Origin: Haloferax elongans ATCC BAA-1513
GTDB taxonomy: Archaea > Halobacteriota > Halobacteria > Halobacteriales > Haloferacaceae
NCBI RefSeq assembly: GCF_000336755.1
Contig: NZ_AOLK01000015.1
Location: 605,658-667,521, forward strand
Direction: 5' to 3'
DNA length: 61,864 nt
The notes below the pieces were generated by a model. It was given only the letters and a program-made list of their open reading frames with translations, was not told the DNA's origin and made no database searches. Made by a program: the position numbers and the translations under genes. Positions 11,060 to 54,169 of this stretch are shown one piece after another (the first letter of the stretch is position 1; the number at the start of each line of letters is the position of its first letter).

Positions 11060-11664
11060 TCAGCCGTCCACGTAGGGGAGGCTGTCTGCCGTGTCCTGTA
11101 CCGCGTCGGCGTTCGACTTCATGAGCGCCGTCGTGTCCCAGACTCCCTCGGTGAGCGCCTTTCTCTGTGCGTCGTCAACGGTCACGTCCACAGTCTTCTC
11201 GTCGTAGGTGACTGTCTCGTTTTCCACGTCCACGTCGATGTCTGCGCCGGGGTTCTCGTCGACCCAGTCCTGCAGTTCGACGATGGTGTCGTGGTCGGCG
11301 GTGACAGTTGGAATACCCAGTGCGAGGCAGTTACCCGCGAAGATTTCCGCGAAGGACTCACCGATGATGGCGTCGATACCCCAGCGCATGAGCGCCTGTG
11401 GAGCGTGTTCGCGCGACGAGCCACAGCCGAAGTTGGCGTTGACGACCATGATAGAGGCCTCCTGGAAGTGCGGCTCGTTCATCGGGTGGTCCTTGGGGTC
11501 GTCGTGCTCGTCGTACCGCTTGTCGAAGAACGCGAACTCACCGAGGCCGTCGAACGTGACGACCTTCATGAACCGCGCCGGGATAATCTGGTCGGTGTCG
11601 ATGTCGTTACCGCGGATGGGGACGCCCGTCCCGGATGCGGAGTCGATTGCTGGGATTTCGTCGG

Positions 11665-11668
<4 letters not shown>
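11060..11668 (-). CDS. leuD: 3-isopropylmalate dehydratase small subunit
   Basis: 202 aa. Swivel-domain subunit of isopropylmalate isomerase. Signs: [16 protein letters not shown] (about 19-34) and the [15 protein letters not shown] loop (about 79-93). Overlaps leuC by 4 bp, indicating translational coupling, and is the last gene of the ilvB-to-leuD operon. Confidence 0.93.
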
Positions 11669-13078
<1,410 letters not shown>

Positions 13079-13086
<8 letters not shown>

Positions 13087-13425: not shown

Positions 13426-14466
13426 TCAGTCGTCTGCCGGTGCTTCTGCTTTCTCTGTGTCGTCGGCCTCGTCGGCCCACGCGAACAACTCGCGCAGGCG
13501 ACCGCCGACGTCCTCGATGTCGTGGTTCTCTTCGGCTTCCTTGAGCTGGGAGTACGACGGGCGGCCCGCCTGGTTCTCCAGAATCCACTCGCGGGCGAAG
13601 GTGCCGTCTTGGACCTCTTCGAGGACTTCCTCCATGCGCTCGCGGCTGTGTTCGTCGACCACGCGGTCACCGCGGGTCAGGCCGCCGAATTCGGCGGTGT
13701 CGGACACCGAGTGCCACATGCCGCCGAGCCCGTCTTCGTACATCAGGTCGACGATGAGCTTCAGTTCGTTCAGGCACTCGAAGTAGGCCATCTCGGGGGA
13801 GTAGCCTGCATCGACGAGCGTCTCGTAGCCCTGCTTGACCAGCGAGGTGACGCCGCCGCAGAGGACGGCCTGCTCGCCGAACAGGTCGGTCTCGGTCTCC
13901 TCGCGGAACGAGGTCTGGATGACACCAGCGCGGGTACAGCCGATTCCGTGGGCGTACGCTAGTGCTTCCTCCTTGGCCTCGCCGGTCGTGTCCTGATAAA
14001 CGGCGATGAGACCGGGCGTTCCCTCGCCACTCTCGTAGTTGCGGCGGACGAGGTGGCCGGGCGACTTGGGCGCGACGAGCGTCACGTCCACGTCCTCCGG
14101 GGGACGAATCTGGTTGTAGTGGATGTTGAACCCGTGAGCGAACTGGAGCGTGTCGCCAGCGTCGAGTTCGTCGCGAATCTCCTCGAAGACCGCTGGCTGG
14201 ACGGTGTCGGGGACGAGCACGGAGACGATGTCCGCCTCTGCTGCGGCCTCGGTGGGCGTCGCAACGCGGAGTCCGTCTTCGCGTGCGGCGTCACGGGACG
14301 AGGAATCTTCGCGGAGGCCGACGACCACGTCGACCCCGCTTTCGTCGAGGTTCTGTGCGTGGGCGTGGCCTTGGCTGCCGTACCCGAGGATGGCTACGGT
14401 CTTGTCGTCGATGTGCGTTCGGTCTGCGTCGTCGTCGTAGTAGACAGTCGTGGTGAAATCGGTCAT
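13426..14466 (-). CDS. ilvC: Ketol-acid reductoisomerase
   Basis: 346 aa. Second step of valine/isoleucine synthesis. The NADP-binding [13 protein letters not shown] (about 28-40), the APKSPGH segment and the catalytic acids in [15 protein letters not shown] (about 215-230) are all present. Class I length, with an acidic C-terminal tail. Starts within the ilvN stop (4-bp overlap). Confidence 0.95.
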
Positions 14467-15116
14467 TGTGTATCAGTCGTTGGTGTCGTCGGTTCGCCGG
14501 ACGTGCCGGGTTCCTCTCCGGGGACGGTCTTCTTCGCACCGTGGGCGAGGGCGGTCTGGCCGGTTCGGGCGATTTCGATGATGCCGAACCGCCGGAACGC
14601 GTCCACGGCGTCGTCTATCTTGCGCTCGTCGCCGGTCAGTTGGACCGTGATGGTCTCCGGGCCGACGTCGAGGGTCTGGCCGTCGTACATCTCCGTGACG
14701 GCGTGGACCTTGTCGGGGTCTTCGCCGCGAACCTTCAGGAGGACGAGTTCGGCGCGGATGGCGTCGTCGTCCAGTTCGCCGATGGAGATGACTGGCTTCA
14801 GCTTGGCCAGCTGTTTTTCGATTTGGTCGATGCCGGGGTCGGGCTCCTCGACGACCATCGTGATGCGCGCGTGGCCGTCGACGGTGGTCGGCCCGACAGT
14901 GAGGCTCTCGATGTTGAACTGTCGGCGAGCGGCGAGGCCAGCGACTCGGGAGAGGACGCCGGGTTCGTGCTCGACGATGGCCGACAGCACGGTTCTGCGT
15001 GGTTCGTGTTCGGCTTCTGCTTCGGGGTCGATGCGGATGCCCTGGGAGTTCCGGCGACCGTCGGGGTGTGGCCGCTCTTCCGGGGCAGGCCCCTGCAGTC
15101 CTTGTTCGTTGCTCAT
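14463..15116 (-). CDS. ilvN: Acetolactate synthase small (regulatory) subunit
   Basis: 217 aa. The ACT domain starts at about residue 40 ([23 protein letters not shown]), followed by the C-terminal IlvH-type domain ([20 protein letters not shown]). An N-terminal extension of about 35 residues is disordered. It confers feedback control on the IlvB catalytic subunit. Overlaps ilvB and ilvC by 4 bp each. Confidence 0.94.
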
Positions 15117-16873
15117 AACTGGTCCTCCGAGAGTGCGAATTTTCCGTTCGCGCCACCCGACGAGACCATCGGGTAGACGTTCTCCGCCGGGTCGACGTGG
15201 AAGTCGATGACCGACGGGCCGTCGTAGGCGAGCGCTTCTTCGATGGCGTCCGGGACTTCCTCGTAGGAGTCGACGGCCCAGCCGCGGGCACCGAACGCCT
15301 CAGCGAGCTTGTCGAACTGCGGACACCAGTCGTAGCCAGCGGCCATGCGCCGGCCTTCGAAGAAGGCGTCCTGCCACTGGCGAACCATCCCGATGTACTC
15401 GTTGTTCAGGATGGCGACGGTGATGTCGAGGTCTTCGCGGACGGCGACCGACAGTTCCTGAATCGTCATCAGGAACGAGGCATCGCCGTCGACGCAGACG
15501 ACGGTCTCGTCGTCGTCGGCAGCGAGCCGTGCACCGATGGCGGCAGGCAAGCCGTATCCCATCGTGCCCAGCCCGTGCGAGGACACCCAACGCCGCGGTT
15601 CACGGAAGGTCCAGTACTGAGCGGCCCACATCTGGTGTTGGCCAACGCCGCTCGTGACGATTGTTTCGTCGGGCGTGGCTTCGTCCAGCGCCTCGACGAC
15701 GAACTGCGGTTTCAGCGGTTCGTCGTCGGGTGCTGCGTAGTCCATCGGGTACTCGTCTTTCCACGTCAGGCACTGTTCGCGCCACTCGCGGGCGTCGGGC
15801 GTCTGGTCCATCTCGGCGTCGATTGCCTCGATAGCTCGGCCTGCGTCGCCGACGACCGGATAGTCCGCGTGGACGTTCTTGGAAATCTCCGCCGGGTCGA
15901 TGTCGATGTGCACGACTTCCGCCTCGGGTGCGAACGTGTCGATACCACCAGTCAAGCGGTCGTCGAAGCGAGTGCCGACTGCGATGAGGCAGTCGGTGTG
16001 AGTGATGGCCATGTTCGCGTATCCGGTGCCGTGCATGCCCGCCCACGAGAGACACAGGTCGTCGTCTTCGGGCATCGCGCCGATGCCGGGCATCGTCGTG
16101 ACGACCGGAATCTGGTGCTCGGTCGCAAACGCCCGTGCTTCGTCGGTCGCATCCCCTTTGACGACGCCGCCACCGAACAGGAGCAGTGGCTTCTCTGCGC
16201 GCTCGATGGCGCGAGCAGCCGCTTCGACCTCGTGGCTGTCGGGGTTGGTCTTGGGACGGCACGTCGCTGGCGCGCGCACCTCACCGGGTTCTCTGTCTGT
16301 CTCGCCCAGCGAGACGTCTTTCGGGAGGTCGACCAGCGTCGGCCCGGGGCGACCCTCAGCCGCCAGCGCGAACGCTTCGCCGACAACGTCGCCAACCGTG
16401 TCGGACGACGAGGCGAAGTAGTTGTGCTTCGTGATAGGCGCGGTGACGCCGGTGGTGTCGGTCTCCTGGAACGCGTCGGAGCCGACCATCTCGGAGGGGA
16501 CCTGTCCGGTGAGTGCGAGCATCGCGTCGGAGTCCATGTTGGCGTCAGCGATGCCGGTCACGAGGTTCGTCGCGCCGGGGCCGGACGTTGCGAGGCAAAC
16601 ACCGGGGTCGCCCTTGACGACACCGTAGGCGTCTGCTGCGTGCGAGGCACCCTGTTCGTGGGCCATCGTGACGTGCCGGATGTCGGAGTGATACAGGGCG
16701 TCGTAGATTGGCATGATAGCGCCACCCTGCACACCGAACGCGGTCTCGACACCTGCGTTCTCCAGTGCTCGAACGACCGACGTCGCACCCGAGGTGACGT
16801 CCGTCTCTGTCGGGTCGTCGTCTGCGGGCGTCGGCGCGTCAGTCTCGGTCGGTGGTGCTGTACGTTCGCTCAT
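15113..16873 (-). CDS. ilvB: Acetolactate synthase large (catalytic) subunit
   Basis: 586 aa. ThDP enzyme joining pyruvate with pyruvate or 2-oxobutyrate. A disordered acidic N-terminus of about 28 residues is followed by the PYR domain with catalytic Glu in MAHEQGASHAADAYG, the central domain, and the ThDP motif GDASFLMTIQELSVAV ending in NNEY. First gene of an overlapping ilvB-ilvN-ilvC-orf-leuC-leuD unit. The start is supported by GGAG (complement of 16881-16884) 7 nt before ATG. It is preceded by a 33-codon leader ORF. Confidence 0.95.
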   Translation of the reverse strand: MSERTAPPTETDAPTPADDDPTETDVTSGATSVVRALENAGVETAFGVQGGAIMPIYDALYHSDIRHVTMAHEQGASHAADAYGVVKGDPGVCLATSGPGATNLVTGIADANMDSDAMLALTGQVPSEMVGSDAFQETDTTGVTAPITKHNYFASSSDTVGDVVGEAFALAAEGRPGPTLVDLPKDVSLGETDREPGEVRAPATCRPKTNPDSHEVEAAARAIERAEKPLLLFGGGVVKGDATDEARAFATEHQIPVVTTMPGIGAMPEDDDLCLSWAGMHGTGYANMAITHTDCLIAVGTRFDDRLTGGIDTFAPEAEVVHIDIDPAEISKNVHADYPVVGDAGRAIEAIDAEMDQTPDAREWREQCLTWKDEYPMDYAAPDDEPLKPQFVVEALDEATPDETIVTSGVGQHQMWAAQYWTFREPRRWVSSHGLGTMGYGLPAAIGARLAADDDETVVCVDGDASFLMTIQELSVAVREDLDITVAILNNEYIGMVRQWQDAFFEGRRMAAGYDWCPQFDKLAEAFGARGWAVDSYEEVPDAIEEALAYDGPSVIDFHVDPAENVYPMVSSGGANGKFALSEDQL

Positions 16874-16880
16874 GTGCGGG

Positions 16881-16884
16881 CTCC
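16881..16884 (-). promoter_or_regulatory. ilvB ribosome binding site
   Basis: GGAG, 7 nt upstream of the ilvB ATG. Notable because the leader ORF ahead of it appears leaderless, so the two starts use different initiation modes, and because the CTCCAC motif at 17003-17008 contains its complement. Confidence 0.5.
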
Positions 16885-17002
16885 GTGGTGGTGTGTTCGT
16901 TGTGGTCGATACGCGTGCTGTCGGTCGGTTTCGTGGTGCTGGTGCTCCATATTGGGGACTCCAAACGTGGCTGAAAACGGTGCAAACCCGTGGGACTGAG
17001 AA

Positions 17003-17008
17003 GTGGAG
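17003..17008 (-). promoter_or_regulatory. CTCCAC motif shared with the ileS leader
   Basis: CTCCAC on the minus strand, 5 nt beyond the stop-codon hairpin; the same motif lies 4 nt beyond the equivalent hairpin upstream of ileS (54055-54060). It could pair with the GGAG of the ilvB ribosome binding site, or with GGAGTG inside the leader ORF (complement of 17070-17075). Confidence 0.45.
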
Positions 17009-17013
17009 TGGTG

Positions 17014-17028
17014 AGGGGCTATGCCCCT
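17014..17028 (-). promoter_or_regulatory. Hairpin holding the ilvB leader stop codon
   Basis: RNA AGGGGC-AUA-GCCCCU, 6 bp with a three-base loop. The UAG stop of the leader ORF straddles the loop and 3' arm, and the tandem AUU codons sit 2 nt before the 5' arm. Confidence 0.55.
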
Positions 17029-17120
17029 ACAATAATGAGCGACCGAACAGCAGCGACGGCGGCACCGCACACTCCGGACTGCGGAGCGGCGAGTGCCAGG
17101 GTGTCGTCGTGCTGATTCAT
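17019..17120 (-). CDS. Candidate leader peptide of the ilvBNC-leuCD operon (33 aa)
   Basis: ORF beginning MNQHDDTLAL and ending VRSLIIVGA-TAG, 145 nt before ilvB. A TATA-like GTAATAAC (17146-17153) centred 29 nt upstream places transcription start at or next to the ATG, so it should be translated leaderless. The two adjacent Ile codons are both ATT, whereas ATC is the normal choice in this genome. The 10 bases GCATACGATG at the start and a 40-nt block at the end match the ORF upstream of ileS. The likely role is sensing Ile supply through ribosome progress. It is shorter than the usual annotation cut-off. Confidence 0.6.
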   Translation of the reverse strand: MNQHDDTLALAAPQSGVCGAAVAAVRSLIIVGA

Positions 17121-17145
17121 CGTATGCCACACGTACTCCCGGTCT

Positions 17146-17153
17146 GTAATAAC
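17146..17153 (-). promoter_or_regulatory. TATA box of the ilvB leader transcript
   Basis: GTTATTAC on the minus strand, centre about 29 nt before the leader ATG, the usual spacing for a leaderless haloarchaeal start. Confidence 0.55.
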
Positions 17154-17240
17154 CCTTTCGCGGGGCGCAACGATTGCACGCCCTCGGGGCCGGAGAGGCA
17201 GTGTGGGGCAGTCGCCCAGTAGGGCCACAGCCCGACGCCA

Positions 17241-18467
17241 TCAGGCGCGGACCTCCTCCTCCTTGTCGTCTACGTGGGCTACACCCACGTCGCGGGCGAA
17301 CGACCTGAGCGTCACGTCGTCGACGCGCTCTTTCTCCGCGCCGTGGTCTTTGACGCGACGGGTTACCTCTCGGACCTCGGCGTCCGAGGGGTCGAACCCA
17401 ATGTCCGCCAGGCGCTTGCGAACCGAGTGAGTCCCCGTGTGCTTGCCGAGTACGAACTCGCGGGTCGCCCCGACCATCTCGGGGGTCATGACGCCCGGTT
17501 CGAACGTATCGGCGTTCTCGATGACGCCGGCAGCGTGGATGCCGCTCTCGTGAGAGAAGGCGTTCTGTCCGACGACCGGCTTGTTCGCCGGAATCGGGAT
17601 GTCGGACGCCGCCTCGACGATACGAGCTAACTCGGTGATTCGAGTGGTATCGATGCCGGTGTCGACGCCGTAGAGGGATTCTGCGGCCATGACGACCTCC
17701 TCGTAGGCGGCGTTGCCGGCACGTTCGCCGATGCCGTTGACCGAAACCTGTGCCTGTGCGGCACCGGCTTCGAACCCGGCCATCGCGTTGGCCGACGCCA
17801 GTCCGAAGTCGTCGTGTGCGTGCACGTCGATTCGGGCGTCGGTGTGTTCGCGGACGGTTTCGACCATCCGGGCGAACCGCGTCGGCGTCGCCACGCCGCA
17901 CGTGTCGGGGAGGTTAATCCAGTCGACGCCGGCCTCGGAGACCGCTTCGACGACTTCGATGAGGAACTCCTCGTCCGTTCGGGTGGCGTCCATCGGCGAG
18001 AACATTACTTCGACGCCCGCGTCGCGGACGCGTTCGACACTACGGACGGCGCGCTCGACGGCTTCTGCGCGAGAAGCGTGCATCGAGTCGGCCAGTTGGA
18101 CATCGCTGGTGCTCACGAACGTGTGCACCATGTCCACGCCGGAATCCAGCGCGGCTTCGATATCCTTGTCGACGACGCGGGCCAACCCGCACGTCGTCGT
18201 GTCCGTCGAAGCAGCGATATCGGCGACTGCGTCGAACTCCGCGTCAGAGTTGACCGGGAACCCTGCCTCGATGACGTGGGTACCCATGTCGTCGAGGGTG
18301 GCGGCCATATCCCGTTTCTCCTCGTAACTGAACGAGGTTCGGGGTGACTGTTCGCCGTCGCGGAGTGTCGTGTCGAAGATTCGTACGTCTTCGATTTCAG
18401 ATTGTTGGGCTAATGTGCCCTGGAAGAACTCGACCCGCCGGGGAACCCGACGAATCCTCCGTGTCAT
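17241..18467 (-). CDS. leuA: 2-isopropylmalate synthase / (R)-citramalate synthase family
   Basis: 408 aa. Condenses acetyl-CoA with a 2-oxo acid. Signs: FDTTLRDGEQSPRTSFS (about 32-48), HAHDDFGLASANAMAG with metal His residues (about 215-230) and GQNAFSHESGIHAAGV (about 305-320). The C-terminal LeuA regulatory domain (about 120 residues in full-length enzymes) is missing, so feedback by leucine may be absent; short forms include citramalate synthases, so substrate choice is open. The ATG at 18467 has no Shine-Dalgarno and lies 10 nt inside another ATG better placed for the TATA box. Confidence 0.88.
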   Translation of the reverse strand: MTRRIRRVPRRVEFFQGTLAQQSEIEDVRIFDTTLRDGEQSPRTSFSYEEKRDMAATLDDMGTHVIEAGFPVNSDAEFDAVADIAASTDTTTCGLARVVDKDIEAALDSGVDMVHTFVSTSDVQLADSMHASRAEAVERAVRSVERVRDAGVEVMFSPMDATRTDEEFLIEVVEAVSEAGVDWINLPDTCGVATPTRFARMVETVREHTDARIDVHAHDDFGLASANAMAGFEAGAAQAQVSVNGIGERAGNAAYEEVVMAAESLYGVDTGIDTTRITELARIVEAASDIPIPANKPVVGQNAFSHESGIHAAGVIENADTFEPGVMTPEMVGATREFVLGKHTGTHSVRKRLADIGFDPSDAEVREVTRRVKDHGAEKERVDDVTLRSFARDVGVAHVDDKEEEVRA

Positions 18468-50667: not shown

Positions 50668-53600
50668 TCAGCCGAGTTGCGTGACCGCGATAGTCACAGA
50701 GACGTCTTCGACGTCCCACTCTTCGACTGTCTCGCCTTCGGCGCGGCCGAGTTCGAGTTCGCGGGCGCGAACCTCATCGGCGATGAGGTCGCGGTTCTCC
50801 TCGACAAAGGCGGCGACGCGCTCGTCTGCGACGTCGATGCCGACGTCGATTTCCTCTTCGACGTCGAGGTCGAGTTGCTTGCGCATCTCCTGAATACGCC
50901 GGATGACATCGCGGGCGTAGCCCTCGGACTCGATGTCGTCGGTGAGGGCGGTGTCCACGTAGACGGTACCACCTTCGAACTCGGCACCCGAGACGTTCTC
51001 CGGCGGTTCGGCCGCGTAGGAGACCATCTCGTCTGTGAGTTCGTAGGTCTCACCGTCGACTTCGACGCCGGATTCGACGTCGGCGCGGGTGAGCCCTTCG
51101 ACAGCGCCCATGATTTTCTGGGCGTCAGCGCCGAACTCCGGCCCGATGACGCTCATTTGCGGTTCGGCCTTCTCGACGAGTTCGTCGAAGACCTCGACGA
51201 CTTCCACCGACTGGGTGTTCACGCGCTCCGAGAGGAGGTCCGAGAGGGCAGTGACTGCTTCAGCCACGTCCTCGTCGTCGGACTCGACGACGATGCGCGA
51301 GACAGGCCAGCGGAGCTTGCGGCCGCCCAGCTGACGGGCGTGGGCCGCGGCCTCCTCGACATCGCGGAGAACCGCCATGTTGGTTTCGAGCGTCTCGTTG
51401 CGAAGGTCCTCGTCGACCTCGGGGTACGAGAGCATGTGGACGGTCGTCTCGCCGCCGTCGAGACGCTGGTACATCCGCTCGGCCATGTACGGCGTGTACG
51501 GCGCGATGAGTCGGAGCGACTCGGAGAGGACCGTCGAAAGCGTGGCGTACGCGCCGAGTTTCGACGCGGACTCCTCTTCGTCCCACATGCGCTCGCGGAT
51601 GGCCTTCACGTAGAAGCGCGACACGTCTTCGGTAATGAAGTCCAGAAGCGTGTTGAGCGCGGTGGAGACCTCGTAGTCGTCCCACGCGTCGTGCATCTCA
51701 GCCTTGACGGTCTGGAGACGCGAAAGCACCCACTCGTCGACGACGGTGAGTTCACCCTCCGAGAGGTCAGCCTCGGCGGGGTCGTAACCGTCCAGTTCCA
51801 TGTACGGCAGCGGGAACCGGAAGACGTTCCAGAAGATGTTGAGCGTGGACTGCATGTCCGCGAGGCCACCCCAGTCGAACGAGAGGTCGACACCCTGCTG
51901 GTCGTGGCTGAGCAGGTACGCACGAAGCGGGTCACGACCGGCGCGGTCGATTGCCTCCTCGGGCGTGACGATGTTGCCGACGGACTTCGACATCTTGCGA
52001 CCGTCCTTGTCGTTGGCGAACCCGTGCATGAGGACCTCCTTGTACGGGGATTCGCCCGTCGCGGCGGTGCCCATGCCGAGTTGCGACCAGAACCAGCCGC
52101 GGGTCTGGTCGTGCGCCTCGATGATGAGGTCGGCGGGCCACAGTTCCTCGTAGGCCTCCGTCTCACCGGGGAAGTCGAGCGTACCCCACGTGGCGACCGA
52201 GGAGTCGATCCACACGTCGAACACGTCAGGGACGCGCTCGTAGGTGACGCCGTCTTCCGTGATGGTGATGGGGTCGACAGAGGGTCGGTGGAGGTCCACC
52301 GTCTCGGGGTCGATGTCCTGGTCGGCGCGCTCGGCGAGTTCCTCGCGCGTGCCCACGACAATCATTTCTTTCGCGCTCTCGGCGTCGGGGTCCTGCGGGA
52401 CCCAGATGGGAAGCGGGATGCCCCAGTAGCGCTGCCGGGAGACGTTCCAGTCGGGCGCGTCGGTCACGAAGTCGTGGAAGCGGTTGTCGCGCGCCCACTG
52501 CGGGTGCCACTCGGACTCCTCGATGTTGTCGAGGAGTTCCTCTTTGACGTCCGTGATGGTGATGAACCACTGGTCGGTCGCGAGGAAGATGATGTCCGTG
52601 TCGCAGCGCCAACAGTGCCCGTAGCGGTGGTCGTGTTCGCCTGCGTGGAGCAGGTGGCCGAGTTCGTCGAGGTCCTCGATGACCTGCGGGTTGGCGTCGC
52701 GGACGAAGGTGCCCGCGTAGTCGCCGCCCTGCTCTGTGAACTCACCTTTGTCGTCCACGGGGACGAACACGTCGAGACCGAGTTCCTGCCCGCGGGCGAA
52801 GTCCTCTTGACCGTGGCCGGGCGCGGAGTGAACGAGTCCCGTGCGGTCGGCTTCGACGTACTCGGCGGTGTAGACCTGTCCAGCACCCTCGAAGTCGGCG
52901 TACTCACCCAGCACGTCTTCGAGCGGGTGGTCGTACTCCCAGCCGACCATCTCTTCGCCGGTGACCTCGTCGAGCACTTCGAAGTCCTCGTAGCGGCCCT
53001 TCTTGAGTACGTCCTCGACGCAGGGTTCGGCGAGGTACAGCACCTCGCTCTCGCCGTCCTTCTCGGCGCGGACGGCCTGATAGGTCATCTCGCCGTCGAC
53101 GGCGACGAAGGTGTTCGCGGGGATGGTCCACGGCGTCGTCGTCCAGATGACGAGGTTACCCTCGCGGCCCTGCAGCGGGAACTTGACGTAGATAGACGGC
53201 GACGTGATTTCGTCGTATTCGACCTCGTTGGCGGCGATTGCAGTCTGACAGCGTGGGCAGTAGTTAACCGAGCGCTTGCCCTGCTCGACCAGACCGTTTT
53301 CGGCGACCTTCGAGAACGCCCACCACGCCGACTCCATGTACTCGGGAGACAGCGTCTCGTAGGGGTTGTCCCAGTCCATCCACGTGCCGATAGACTGGAA
53401 GTCGTCGTCCATCGCCTTGCGGTTGCGGACGGCGAACTCCTTGCACTTCTGGATGAACTGCTCCATGCCGAACTCCTCGATATCGCGCTTCGAGGTGAAG
53501 CCGAGTTCCTCTTCGACTTTGACCTCGATGGGGAGGCCGTGCATGTCGTAGCCGGGGCGGTCGGTGACGTGGTGCCCCGTCATGCGCTTGTGCCGGATGA

Positions 53601-53883
53601 CGGCGTCTTTCAGCGTCTTGTTCCAGGCCGTGCCGAGGTGCATCTGGCCGGACGTGTACGGCGGGCCGTCGACGAAGAAGAACGACGGGTCGTCGGCGTG
53701 TGCCTCCTTCGTCGCCTCGTACGCGTCGTTCTCGTCCCAGTACTCGCTGACGGCGGACTCGACGTCCCCCGGCGTGTACTGGTCTGCGATGTCTTCCATA
53801 CCCCGACGTTCTCGTGGATATATATCAAAACGGCGGGTCTCGTCCGCGTCCGTCGGTCGTTCCGTCTGGTCGCTTTCAGACAT
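50668..53883 (-). CDS. ileS: Isoleucyl-tRNA synthetase
   Basis: 1071 aa. Class I enzyme with HIGH-like PPYTSGQMHLGTAW (about 74-87) and KMSKS in DGRKMSKSVGNIV, the editing domain between (WTTTPWTIPANTFVAVDG) and a C-terminal anticodon-binding part. Two starts are possible. The ATG at 53883 has GGAG 8 nt upstream and adds a 28-residue acidic, probably disordered extension. The ATG at 53799 begins at MEDIADQYTPGDVE, where family homology starts, and has TATATAT about 24 nt upstream. Preceded by a 32-codon leader ORF matching that of ilvB. Confidence 0.94.
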   Translation of the reverse strand: MSESDQTERPTDADETRRFDIYPRERRGMEDIADQYTPGDVESAVSEYWDENDAYEATKEAHADDPSFFFVDGPPYTSGQMHLGTAWNKTLKDAVIRHKRMTGHHVTDRPGYDMHGLPIEVKVEEELGFTSKRDIEEFGMEQFIQKCKEFAVRNRKAMDDDFQSIGTWMDWDNPYETLSPEYMESAWWAFSKVAENGLVEQGKRSVNYCPRCQTAIAANEVEYDEITSPSIYVKFPLQGREGNLVIWTTTPWTIPANTFVAVDGEMTYQAVRAEKDGESEVLYLAEPCVEDVLKKGRYEDFEVLDEVTGEEMVGWEYDHPLEDVLGEYADFEGAGQVYTAEYVEADRTGLVHSAPGHGQEDFARGQELGLDVFVPVDDKGEFTEQGGDYAGTFVRDANPQVIEDLDELGHLLHAGEHDHRYGHCWRCDTDIIFLATDQWFITITDVKEELLDNIEESEWHPQWARDNRFHDFVTDAPDWNVSRQRYWGIPLPIWVPQDPDAESAKEMIVVGTREELAERADQDIDPETVDLHRPSVDPITITEDGVTYERVPDVFDVWIDSSVATWGTLDFPGETEAYEELWPADLIIEAHDQTRGWFWSQLGMGTAATGESPYKEVLMHGFANDKDGRKMSKSVGNIVTPEEAIDRAGRDPLRAYLLSHDQQGVDLSFDWGGLADMQSTLNIFWNVFRFPLPYMELDGYDPAEADLSEGELTVVDEWVLSRLQTVKAEMHDAWDDYEVSTALNTLLDFITEDVSRFYVKAIRERMWDEEESASKLGAYATLSTVLSESLRLIAPYTPYMAERMYQRLDGGETTVHMLSYPEVDEDLRNETLETNMAVLRDVEEAAAHARQLGGRKLRWPVSRIVVESDDEDVAEAVTALSDLLSERVNTQSVEVVEVFDELVEKAEPQMSVIGPEFGADAQKIMGAVEGLTRADVESGVEVDGETYELTDEMVSYAAEPPENVSGAEFEGGTVYVDTALTDDIESEGYARDVIRRIQEMRKQLDLDVEEEIDVGIDVADERVAAFVEENRDLIADEVRARELELGRAEGETVEEWDVEDVSVTIAVTQLG
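53818..53830 (-). promoter_or_regulatory. Internal TATA box at the ileS 5' end
   Basis: TTTTGATATATAT on the minus strand lies inside the long-form coding sequence and about 25 nt before the ATG at 53799. It suggests a second, leader-independent leaderless transcript for a shorter IleRS. Confidence 0.45.
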
Positions 53884-53891
53884 GGCGTGCG

Positions 53892-53895
53892 CTCC
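53892..53895 (-). promoter_or_regulatory. Ribosome binding site of the long ileS form
   Basis: GGAG 8 nt upstream of the ATG at 53883, the same arrangement as at ilvB. Supports use of the distal start on leader-containing transcripts. Confidence 0.45.
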
Positions 53896-54054
53896 GCTTT
53901 GCTGGGGTGGTGGCTCGTCGCCACCGCCCGGAGGCTGTCTGTCGTCGATACTGCTGTCGAGTGTGGTGTGTGGATGGCATCATTCGATGTGTTGGGGTCG
54001 ATTCACACGGCGTGCTGTGGGTACTCAGAAACGATGCAAGCGCAGAGAACGAGT

Positions 54055-54060: not shown

Positions 54061-54064
54061 ATGT

Positions 54065-54082
54065 GCGAGGCTACTGCCCCGC
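54065..54082 (-). promoter_or_regulatory. Hairpin holding the ileS leader stop codon
   Basis: RNA GCGGGGC-AGUA-GCCUCGC, 7 bp including one G-U pair. Sequence differs from the ilvB hairpin on both arms while pairing is kept. The stop UAG lies in the loop and first 3' arm base, and the tandem AUU codons abut the 5' arm. Confidence 0.55.
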
Positions 54083-54169
54083 AATAATCAGCGAGTCGGA
54101 GACGACAGCGCGGCGGAGCGGCTGCTCGACCTCAGTTGGTCGGGTCGCAGCCGGTCCTAAGTGCCGCAT
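54071..54169 (-). CDS. Candidate leader peptide of ileS (32 aa)
   Basis: ORF beginning MRHLGPAATR and ending SDSLIIAGQ-TAG, 187 nt before the ATG at 53883. It shares GCATACGATG at its start and an ungapped 40-nt block at its end (30 identical by my count) with the ilvB leader ORF, including tandem ATT Ile codons. AT-rich bases at 54196-54209 are 27-40 nt upstream, so leaderless translation is plausible although the TATA box is weaker than for ilvB. A strong stem (GGCTGC to GCAGCC, 54120-54152) lies within the ORF. Confidence 0.58.
   Translation of the reverse strand: MRHLGPAATRPTEVEQPLRRAVVSDSLIIAGQ

Follow-up and report, generated by a model that had tools for sequence, protein, structure and literature searches.

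A likely leader-peptide attenuator upstream of ilvB in Haloferax elongans, with leaders of the same design in other Halobacteria

What is a short open reading frame (ORF) that ends in isoleucine codons doing directly ahead of genes for branched-chain amino-acid synthesis in an archaeon? An earlier note on this DNA of Haloferax elongans had inferred that ribosome pausing at these codons changes RNA folding and so expression of the ilvBNC-leuCD operon, and had named conservation of the ORF and of an adjoining hairpin as its check. We analyzed the window (the whole stretch of 61,864 nucleotides), and compared the region with its counterparts in other haloarchaea. We conclude that it is likely a leader-peptide (ribosome-mediated) attenuator, a reading in which translation in vivo, stalling, termination at the hairpin and coupling of a second upstream ORF are inferred. 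The genes concerned are the following.

15113..16873, minus strand: ilvB, acetolactate synthase large subunit, the putatively regulated gene (NCBIfam TIGR00118, above cut-off)
13426..15116, minus strand: ilvN and ilvC, next in the operon (TIGR00119 and TIGR00465, above cut-off)
11060..13086, minus strand: leuC and leuD (TIGR00170 and TIGR00171, above cut-off)

These NCBIfam matches bear out the operon as first named; 3' of the leader the gene order is ilvB, ilvN, ilvC, leuC, leuD, then a leuB-type gene. A leuA/cimA-type gene lies directly upstream of the leader (17241-18467, minus strand), so the leader promoter sits in a 120-nt gap inside a branched-chain amino-acid cluster.

Anatomy of the ilvB leader

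17147..17160, minus strand: leader promoter, BRE-like CGAAAGGG plus TATA element TTATTA, upstream of the leader ATG
17120-17019, minus strand: uORF1, leader peptide MNQHDDTLALAAPQSGVCGAAVAAVRSLIIVGA then stop, 33 codons plus TAG, with in-frame equivalents in 80/80 ilvB loci
17045..17118, minus strand: H1, a large hairpin that takes up uORF1 between its ATG and the sensor codons, stopping just short of both
17028..17039, minus strand: sensor codons CTC ATT ATT GTA (Leu-Ile-Ile-Val), with rare ATT and GTA
17015..17027, minus strand: H2, hairpin GGGGC-ATA-GCCCC enclosing the TAG stop codon (17021-17019)
16997..17014, minus strand: G-free, C/U-rich tract directly 3' of H2, T-rich about 11-16 nt on
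16870..16950, minus strand: uORF2, MEHQHHETDRQHAYRPQRTHHHGART then stop, without Ile, Leu or Val; its stop overlaps the ilvB start (ATGA)

The TATA element (17152-17147) is preceded by BRE-like GAAAGG and lies at -32 to -27 from the leader ATG, which places uORF1 for a leaderless start. The peptide ends Ser-Leu-Ile-Ile-Val-Gly-Ala, with ATT used for both isoleucines. Of what the earlier note had described, the 33-codon ORF, its leaderless placement, its ending, the ATT pair and the hairpin containing the stop codon were confirmed, on the minus strand. Two points needed amendment: the hairpin, put at 2 nt after the Ile codons, has a GGGG stem that begins 3 nt after the second ATT, i.e. after GTA, and the description of a 145-nt spacer before ilvB was incomplete, having overlooked uORF2 (16950-16870).

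A box, GCACCGTTTTCAG, was also observed about 30 nt 3' of H2 (16983-16971, minus strand). It recurs in several genera and has a related counterpart, GCATCGTTTCTGAG, in the ileS leader described below; these boxes could serve as another T-tract terminator or as a site for a protein.

Conservation of frame, codons and hairpin

The leader region was matched in all 14 other Haloferax genomes searched. For a wider view, 80 haloarchaeal ilvB loci were picked by similarity to the ilvB protein; counts from these loci and from the 391 genomes below are uncorrected for relatedness. GTAGGGG...CCCC with an in-frame ATG was present upstream of ilvB in 80/80 loci, and the leader ORF ended with (I)IVG(A/V) at the same hairpin in all of them. 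An open leader frame was rejected as evidence, being worthless in GC-rich DNA where a second frame is also open. The position of the stop codon is informative: read in the leader frame, 79/80 loci have it within the hairpin, compared with 0/80 for the other informative frame. Only these two frames can be compared because GTAGGGG itself supplies TAG in the remaining one. The codons of the leader end are equally distinctive. GTA is used in 80/80 leaders, compared with 0.2% of the Val codons in ilvB of the same species, and the codon before it is ATT in 59 loci, ATC in 20 and GTA in one; ATT makes up 6.9% of the Ile codons in the 80 ilvB genes, so the earlier description of it as a minor codon held. 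An A/T fraction of 0.91-0.97 at -32 to -29 across the 80 loci indicates a fixed distance from TATA to leader ATG (where several ATGs were available, the one with the better TATA was taken).

From 56 of the 80 loci we built a covariance model, which matched 370/391 Halobacteria genomes at E<=0.01, usually once per genome, although the position before ilvB was not verified for each match. Run on a sample of the phylum, the model found nothing outside the class Halobacteria. In genomes without a match, about one in two ilvB loci has a divergent version of the hairpin. No stop-hairpin leader was recognized at the ilvB loci L156, L158, L162, L164 and L167-L169 (the last three in families f9 and f11). 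At two further ilvB loci, L106 and L155, the hairpin is kept and the stop triplet in its loop is lost, so that the leader ORF runs on.

The same hairpin was also observed at L194 (minus strand, near 1512) and L198 (1512), with leader ORFs that end LIVGV and ILIVGV, followed by stop. These leaders precede a short ORF, MAD(V/I)..HTPP.EAP.ANRVFERG, with no ilvB within the examined DNA.

Could the conserved palindrome, GTAGGGG-N-CCCC(TAC), be a DNA operator of a transcription regulator, with the ORF incidental? In favor, GTAGGGG is invariant across the 80 loci and partly palindromic. Against this, the distance from GGGG to CCCC varies from 5 to 8 nt among ilvB loci, the leader-frame stop is kept using three different triplets (TAG 48, TAA 22, TGA 10), and leaders of ileS and argG share the anatomy despite unrelated stems, with codons that match the gene. 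We regard an operator as very unlikely. A second alternative, that uORF1 encodes a functional small protein acting in trans, draws support from an ORF that looks translated and has a conserved end. However, its N-terminal part varies in length between genera and its N-terminal codons are without protein-level constraint (dN/dS about 0.87, no codon-position bias), and the last residues are set by codons and hairpin. Because the N-terminal codons are unconstrained, yet the last codons and the position of the stop are kept, uORF1 reads as a leader peptide, and the small-protein explanation is all but excluded. That uORF1 is a translated regulatory leader is very likely, its translation in vivo being inferred.

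As to RNA structure, H2 has a mean dG of -11.8 kcal/mol over the 80 loci, and the pair adjoining its loop covaries (C-G 39, U-A 12, U-G 2), the one stem pair to do so. Compensatory change of GGGG/CCCC to GGGC/GCCC on both sides occurs at the ilvB locus L160 and in the valS leaders of G084, G088 and G109. The conservation check was therefore passed: ORF, Ile(-Ile)-Val ending and stop-in-hairpin are kept class-wide, with one covarying stem pair. H1, seen on folding 15 Haloferax sequences, recurs in other species; in 69/80 loci the fold is better than that of dinucleotide-shuffled sequences (mean z -1.41). H1 arms score 16.3 (sd 0.47) with swapped partners and 17.6 with their own partner, the latter value being reached by 0/400 permutations. 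Of three pairings suggested earlier, CTCCG/CGGAG held as the core of H1. GGAGTG/CACTCC and ACTCC/GGAGT (16958-16962) failed: they look incidental, since they are absent in other Haloferax such as L034. A mutually exclusive antiterminator and terminator, the trp-type feature, was not found, as H1 and H2 do not overlap and the alternatives first proposed are unconserved. Directly after H2, a G-free run of at least 12 nt is present in 63/80 loci, compared with 0.9% of random positions, and turns T-rich at 11-16 nt; no long U-tract follows H2.

A structured leader before a biosynthetic operon might also be a ligand-binding riboswitch. An Rfam scan of the window at the gathering threshold gave no family match, sequence conservation is limited to the short hairpin, and the reading frame is constrained; a riboswitch is accordingly all but ruled out.

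uORF2 was found in 66/80 loci and overlaps ilvB by ATGA in 63. The overlap is weak evidence, because an ilvB start of ATGA produces it by itself; we weigh composition as the stronger evidence. Ile, Leu and Val together account for 3.0% of uORF2 read in its own frame, compared with 10.6% and 7.3% when the frame is shifted; in 60/66 loci no other frame has a lower share (Wilcoxon p 2e-8 and 2e-4, relatedness uncorrected). No A/T peak at the distance expected of a second promoter was found before uORF2.

The same anatomy before ileS, valS and argG

A second instance occurs in the same window, ahead of the isoleucyl-tRNA synthetase gene.

54071..54169, minus strand: uORF1 of the ileS leader, MRHLGPAATRPTEVEQPLRRAVVSDSLIIAGQ then stop
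54064..54083, minus strand: H2 of the ileS leader, TGCGGGGCAGTAGCCTCGCA, with the stop codon in the hairpin (dG -13.6 kcal/mol)
53876..53980, minus strand: uORF2 of the ileS leader, MPSTHHTRQQYRRQTASGRWRRATTPAKRSARHV then stop, overlapping the ileS start
50668..53883, minus strand: ileS, isoleucyl-tRNA synthetase (NCBIfam TIGR00392, above cut-off)

In a Haloferax relative, the ileS leader ends SSIIAGH before its stop, with Ile codons ATT ATT. This leader was seen only in Haloferax; a search of 28 loci outside the genus did not find it. Second covariance-model matches in some genomes precede valS, where the leaders end VFVGA(x), VVVGAS or TVVGAA before the stop, and matches to the Phe-Val form of the pattern lay upstream of valS in 13/13 genomes with a known valS position. 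The argG leader of the Haloferax relative ends IRRRRPAL before its stop, with CGA as the Arg codon; the argG motif is present in 15/15 Haloferax genomes and in some other genera, where TGA may replace TAG. In most genomes, DNA upstream of argG and valS was checked by fixed-pattern searches only. The argG motif of G006 and G013 keeps the hairpin and has lost the stop triplet of the loop, and its leader ORF runs on.

A blind scan of 2.4 Mb (78% of the chromosome) of the Haloferax relative, for short ORFs with a TATA-ATG arrangement that end in a hairpin with a G-poor tract behind it, returned about a dozen candidates, including ilvB, ileS and argG. A strict version over the same 2.4 Mb gave three matches, two of them ilvB and argG, with reversed controls giving 1 and 0; a relaxed genome scan gave mostly noise.

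Across the four gene contexts the codons match the gene: Ile/Val before ilvB, Ile-Ile before ileS, Val before valS and CGA Arg before argG. In all four, 0-3 nt separate the last sensor codon from the hairpin, and the ileS and argG leaders have the same anatomy with unrelated stem sequences. Anatomy, conservation, frame and codon match in the four contexts are shown, and the codon-to-gene match is hard to account for otherwise. We therefore consider it likely that the leader senses aminoacyl-tRNA, stalling itself being inferred.

A proposed mechanism and its relation to known systems

In the proposed scheme, the transcript would start at the leader ATG or slightly upstream of it, with a ribosome translating uORF1 close behind RNA polymerase. 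With Ile- and Val-tRNA charged, the ribosome would reach the stop in H2 and leave; H2 would fold, and the G-free pyrimidine tract ahead of ilvB would be where transcription ends (or the message is silenced). Under shortage of Ile or Val, the ribosome would stall on ATT-ATT-GTA with its leading edge over the 5' arm of H2, which could not form, and polymerase would continue into uORF2 and ilvB. Because it avoids Ile, Leu and Val codons, uORF2 could be translated during starvation and may pass ribosomes to ilvB through the ATGA overlap. Given the position of the sensor codons, a stalled ribosome may mask the hairpin directly, without a trp-type antiterminator. The inference of the earlier note that pausing at Ile codons alters operon expression is thus supported from the sequence, with pausing, transcript start and effect on expression inferred; its alternative-pairing (antiterminator) part is unsupported, direct masking being simpler.

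Several points count against an attenuator. A ribosome terminating at the stop would also cover H2, so the scheme needs prompt release; the stop is lost in some species (L106 and L155, and the argG motif of G006 and G013); the leader went unrecognized at the ilvB loci listed above; and many species have a single Ile and a single Val codon in the leader, with no run.

The output is less secure than the sensor. We lean towards H2 acting as a transcription terminator, on the indirect evidence of the G-free, T-rich tract. Work on H. volcanii measured 59% termination for one hairpin and found that T-stretches with a C after them act as terminators (PMC7237163). Without a long U-tract after H2, such termination could be inefficient or rely on a factor; factor-dependent termination by FttA is an alternative (PMC11616081). 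The strongest rival keeps the same sensor with another output: H2 would govern translation or stability, e.g. ribosome access to the ilvB-coupled uORF2, or exposure of C-rich RNA to FttA/aCPSF1 when no ribosome follows. The frequency of uORF2 and its overlap with the ilvB start, the lack of a strong U-tract, the attribution of archaeal polarity to FttA and the known coupling at overlapping start and stop codons in H. volcanii (PMC12548453) favor it. However, H2 lies about 80 nt before uORF2 without overlapping its start, and a G-free then T-rich tract right after H2 suits release of polymerase. We rate this rival as possible but clearly less likely than not, and transcription attenuation remains our preferred reading.

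For bacteria, attenuation by leader peptides is textbook knowledge, and the described systems closest to the present one are the leader peptides of bacterial ilvB (PMC10272879): the attenuators of Corynebacterium ilvBNC and the ilvB-II motif likewise have a short uORF with pathway codons before ilvB and a hairpin, and are thought to work by transcription attenuation (PMC10272879, PMC11857589). The haloarchaeal leader differs from these in its archaeal host, leaderless start, stop codon inside the hairpin, sensor codons abutting the hairpin, lack of a bacterial-type U-tract and second uORF overlapping ilvB, and no competing antiterminator was found. Bacterial aminoacyl-tRNA synthetase attenuators, e.g. 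that of pheST in E. coli, use a leader peptide with cognate codons. The ileS and valS leaders likewise place cognate codons before a synthetase gene, but in an archaeal host; no sequence or structural kinship was seen, although this was not tested. The uORF2-ilvB overlap fits termination-reinitiation at overlapping genes in H. volcanii (Huber et al. 2019, cited in PMC12548453), except that the upstream partner here is a regulatory-looking uORF instead of a full gene. Like the earlier note, which knew of no archaeal amino-acid leader-peptide system, we recognized no archaeal leader-peptide attenuation in the titles and abstracts of the open-licence literature; subscription papers were outside the search, and absence is unproven. 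Attenuation goes unmentioned in a review on coupling in archaea (PMC8116511).

A bolder reading, which we hold with only a modest preference over its negation, is a class-wide attenuation system for several amino acids (ilvB, ileS, valS, argG and probably more), in which leaderless ORFs have their stop in a regulatory hairpin and abutting sensor codons, and a second uORF, from which the limiting amino acids have been removed, would hand ribosomes on in starvation in the case of ilvB and ileS. The shared anatomy with different codons makes a gene-by-gene test possible, and the idea is readily testable in the genetically tractable model Haloferax volcanii. If true, transcription and translation in archaea would be so tightly coupled that a ribosome could determine what becomes of the polymerase in front of it, and the leaders would account for the way in which amino-acid synthesis and tRNA charging are tuned in haloarchaea.
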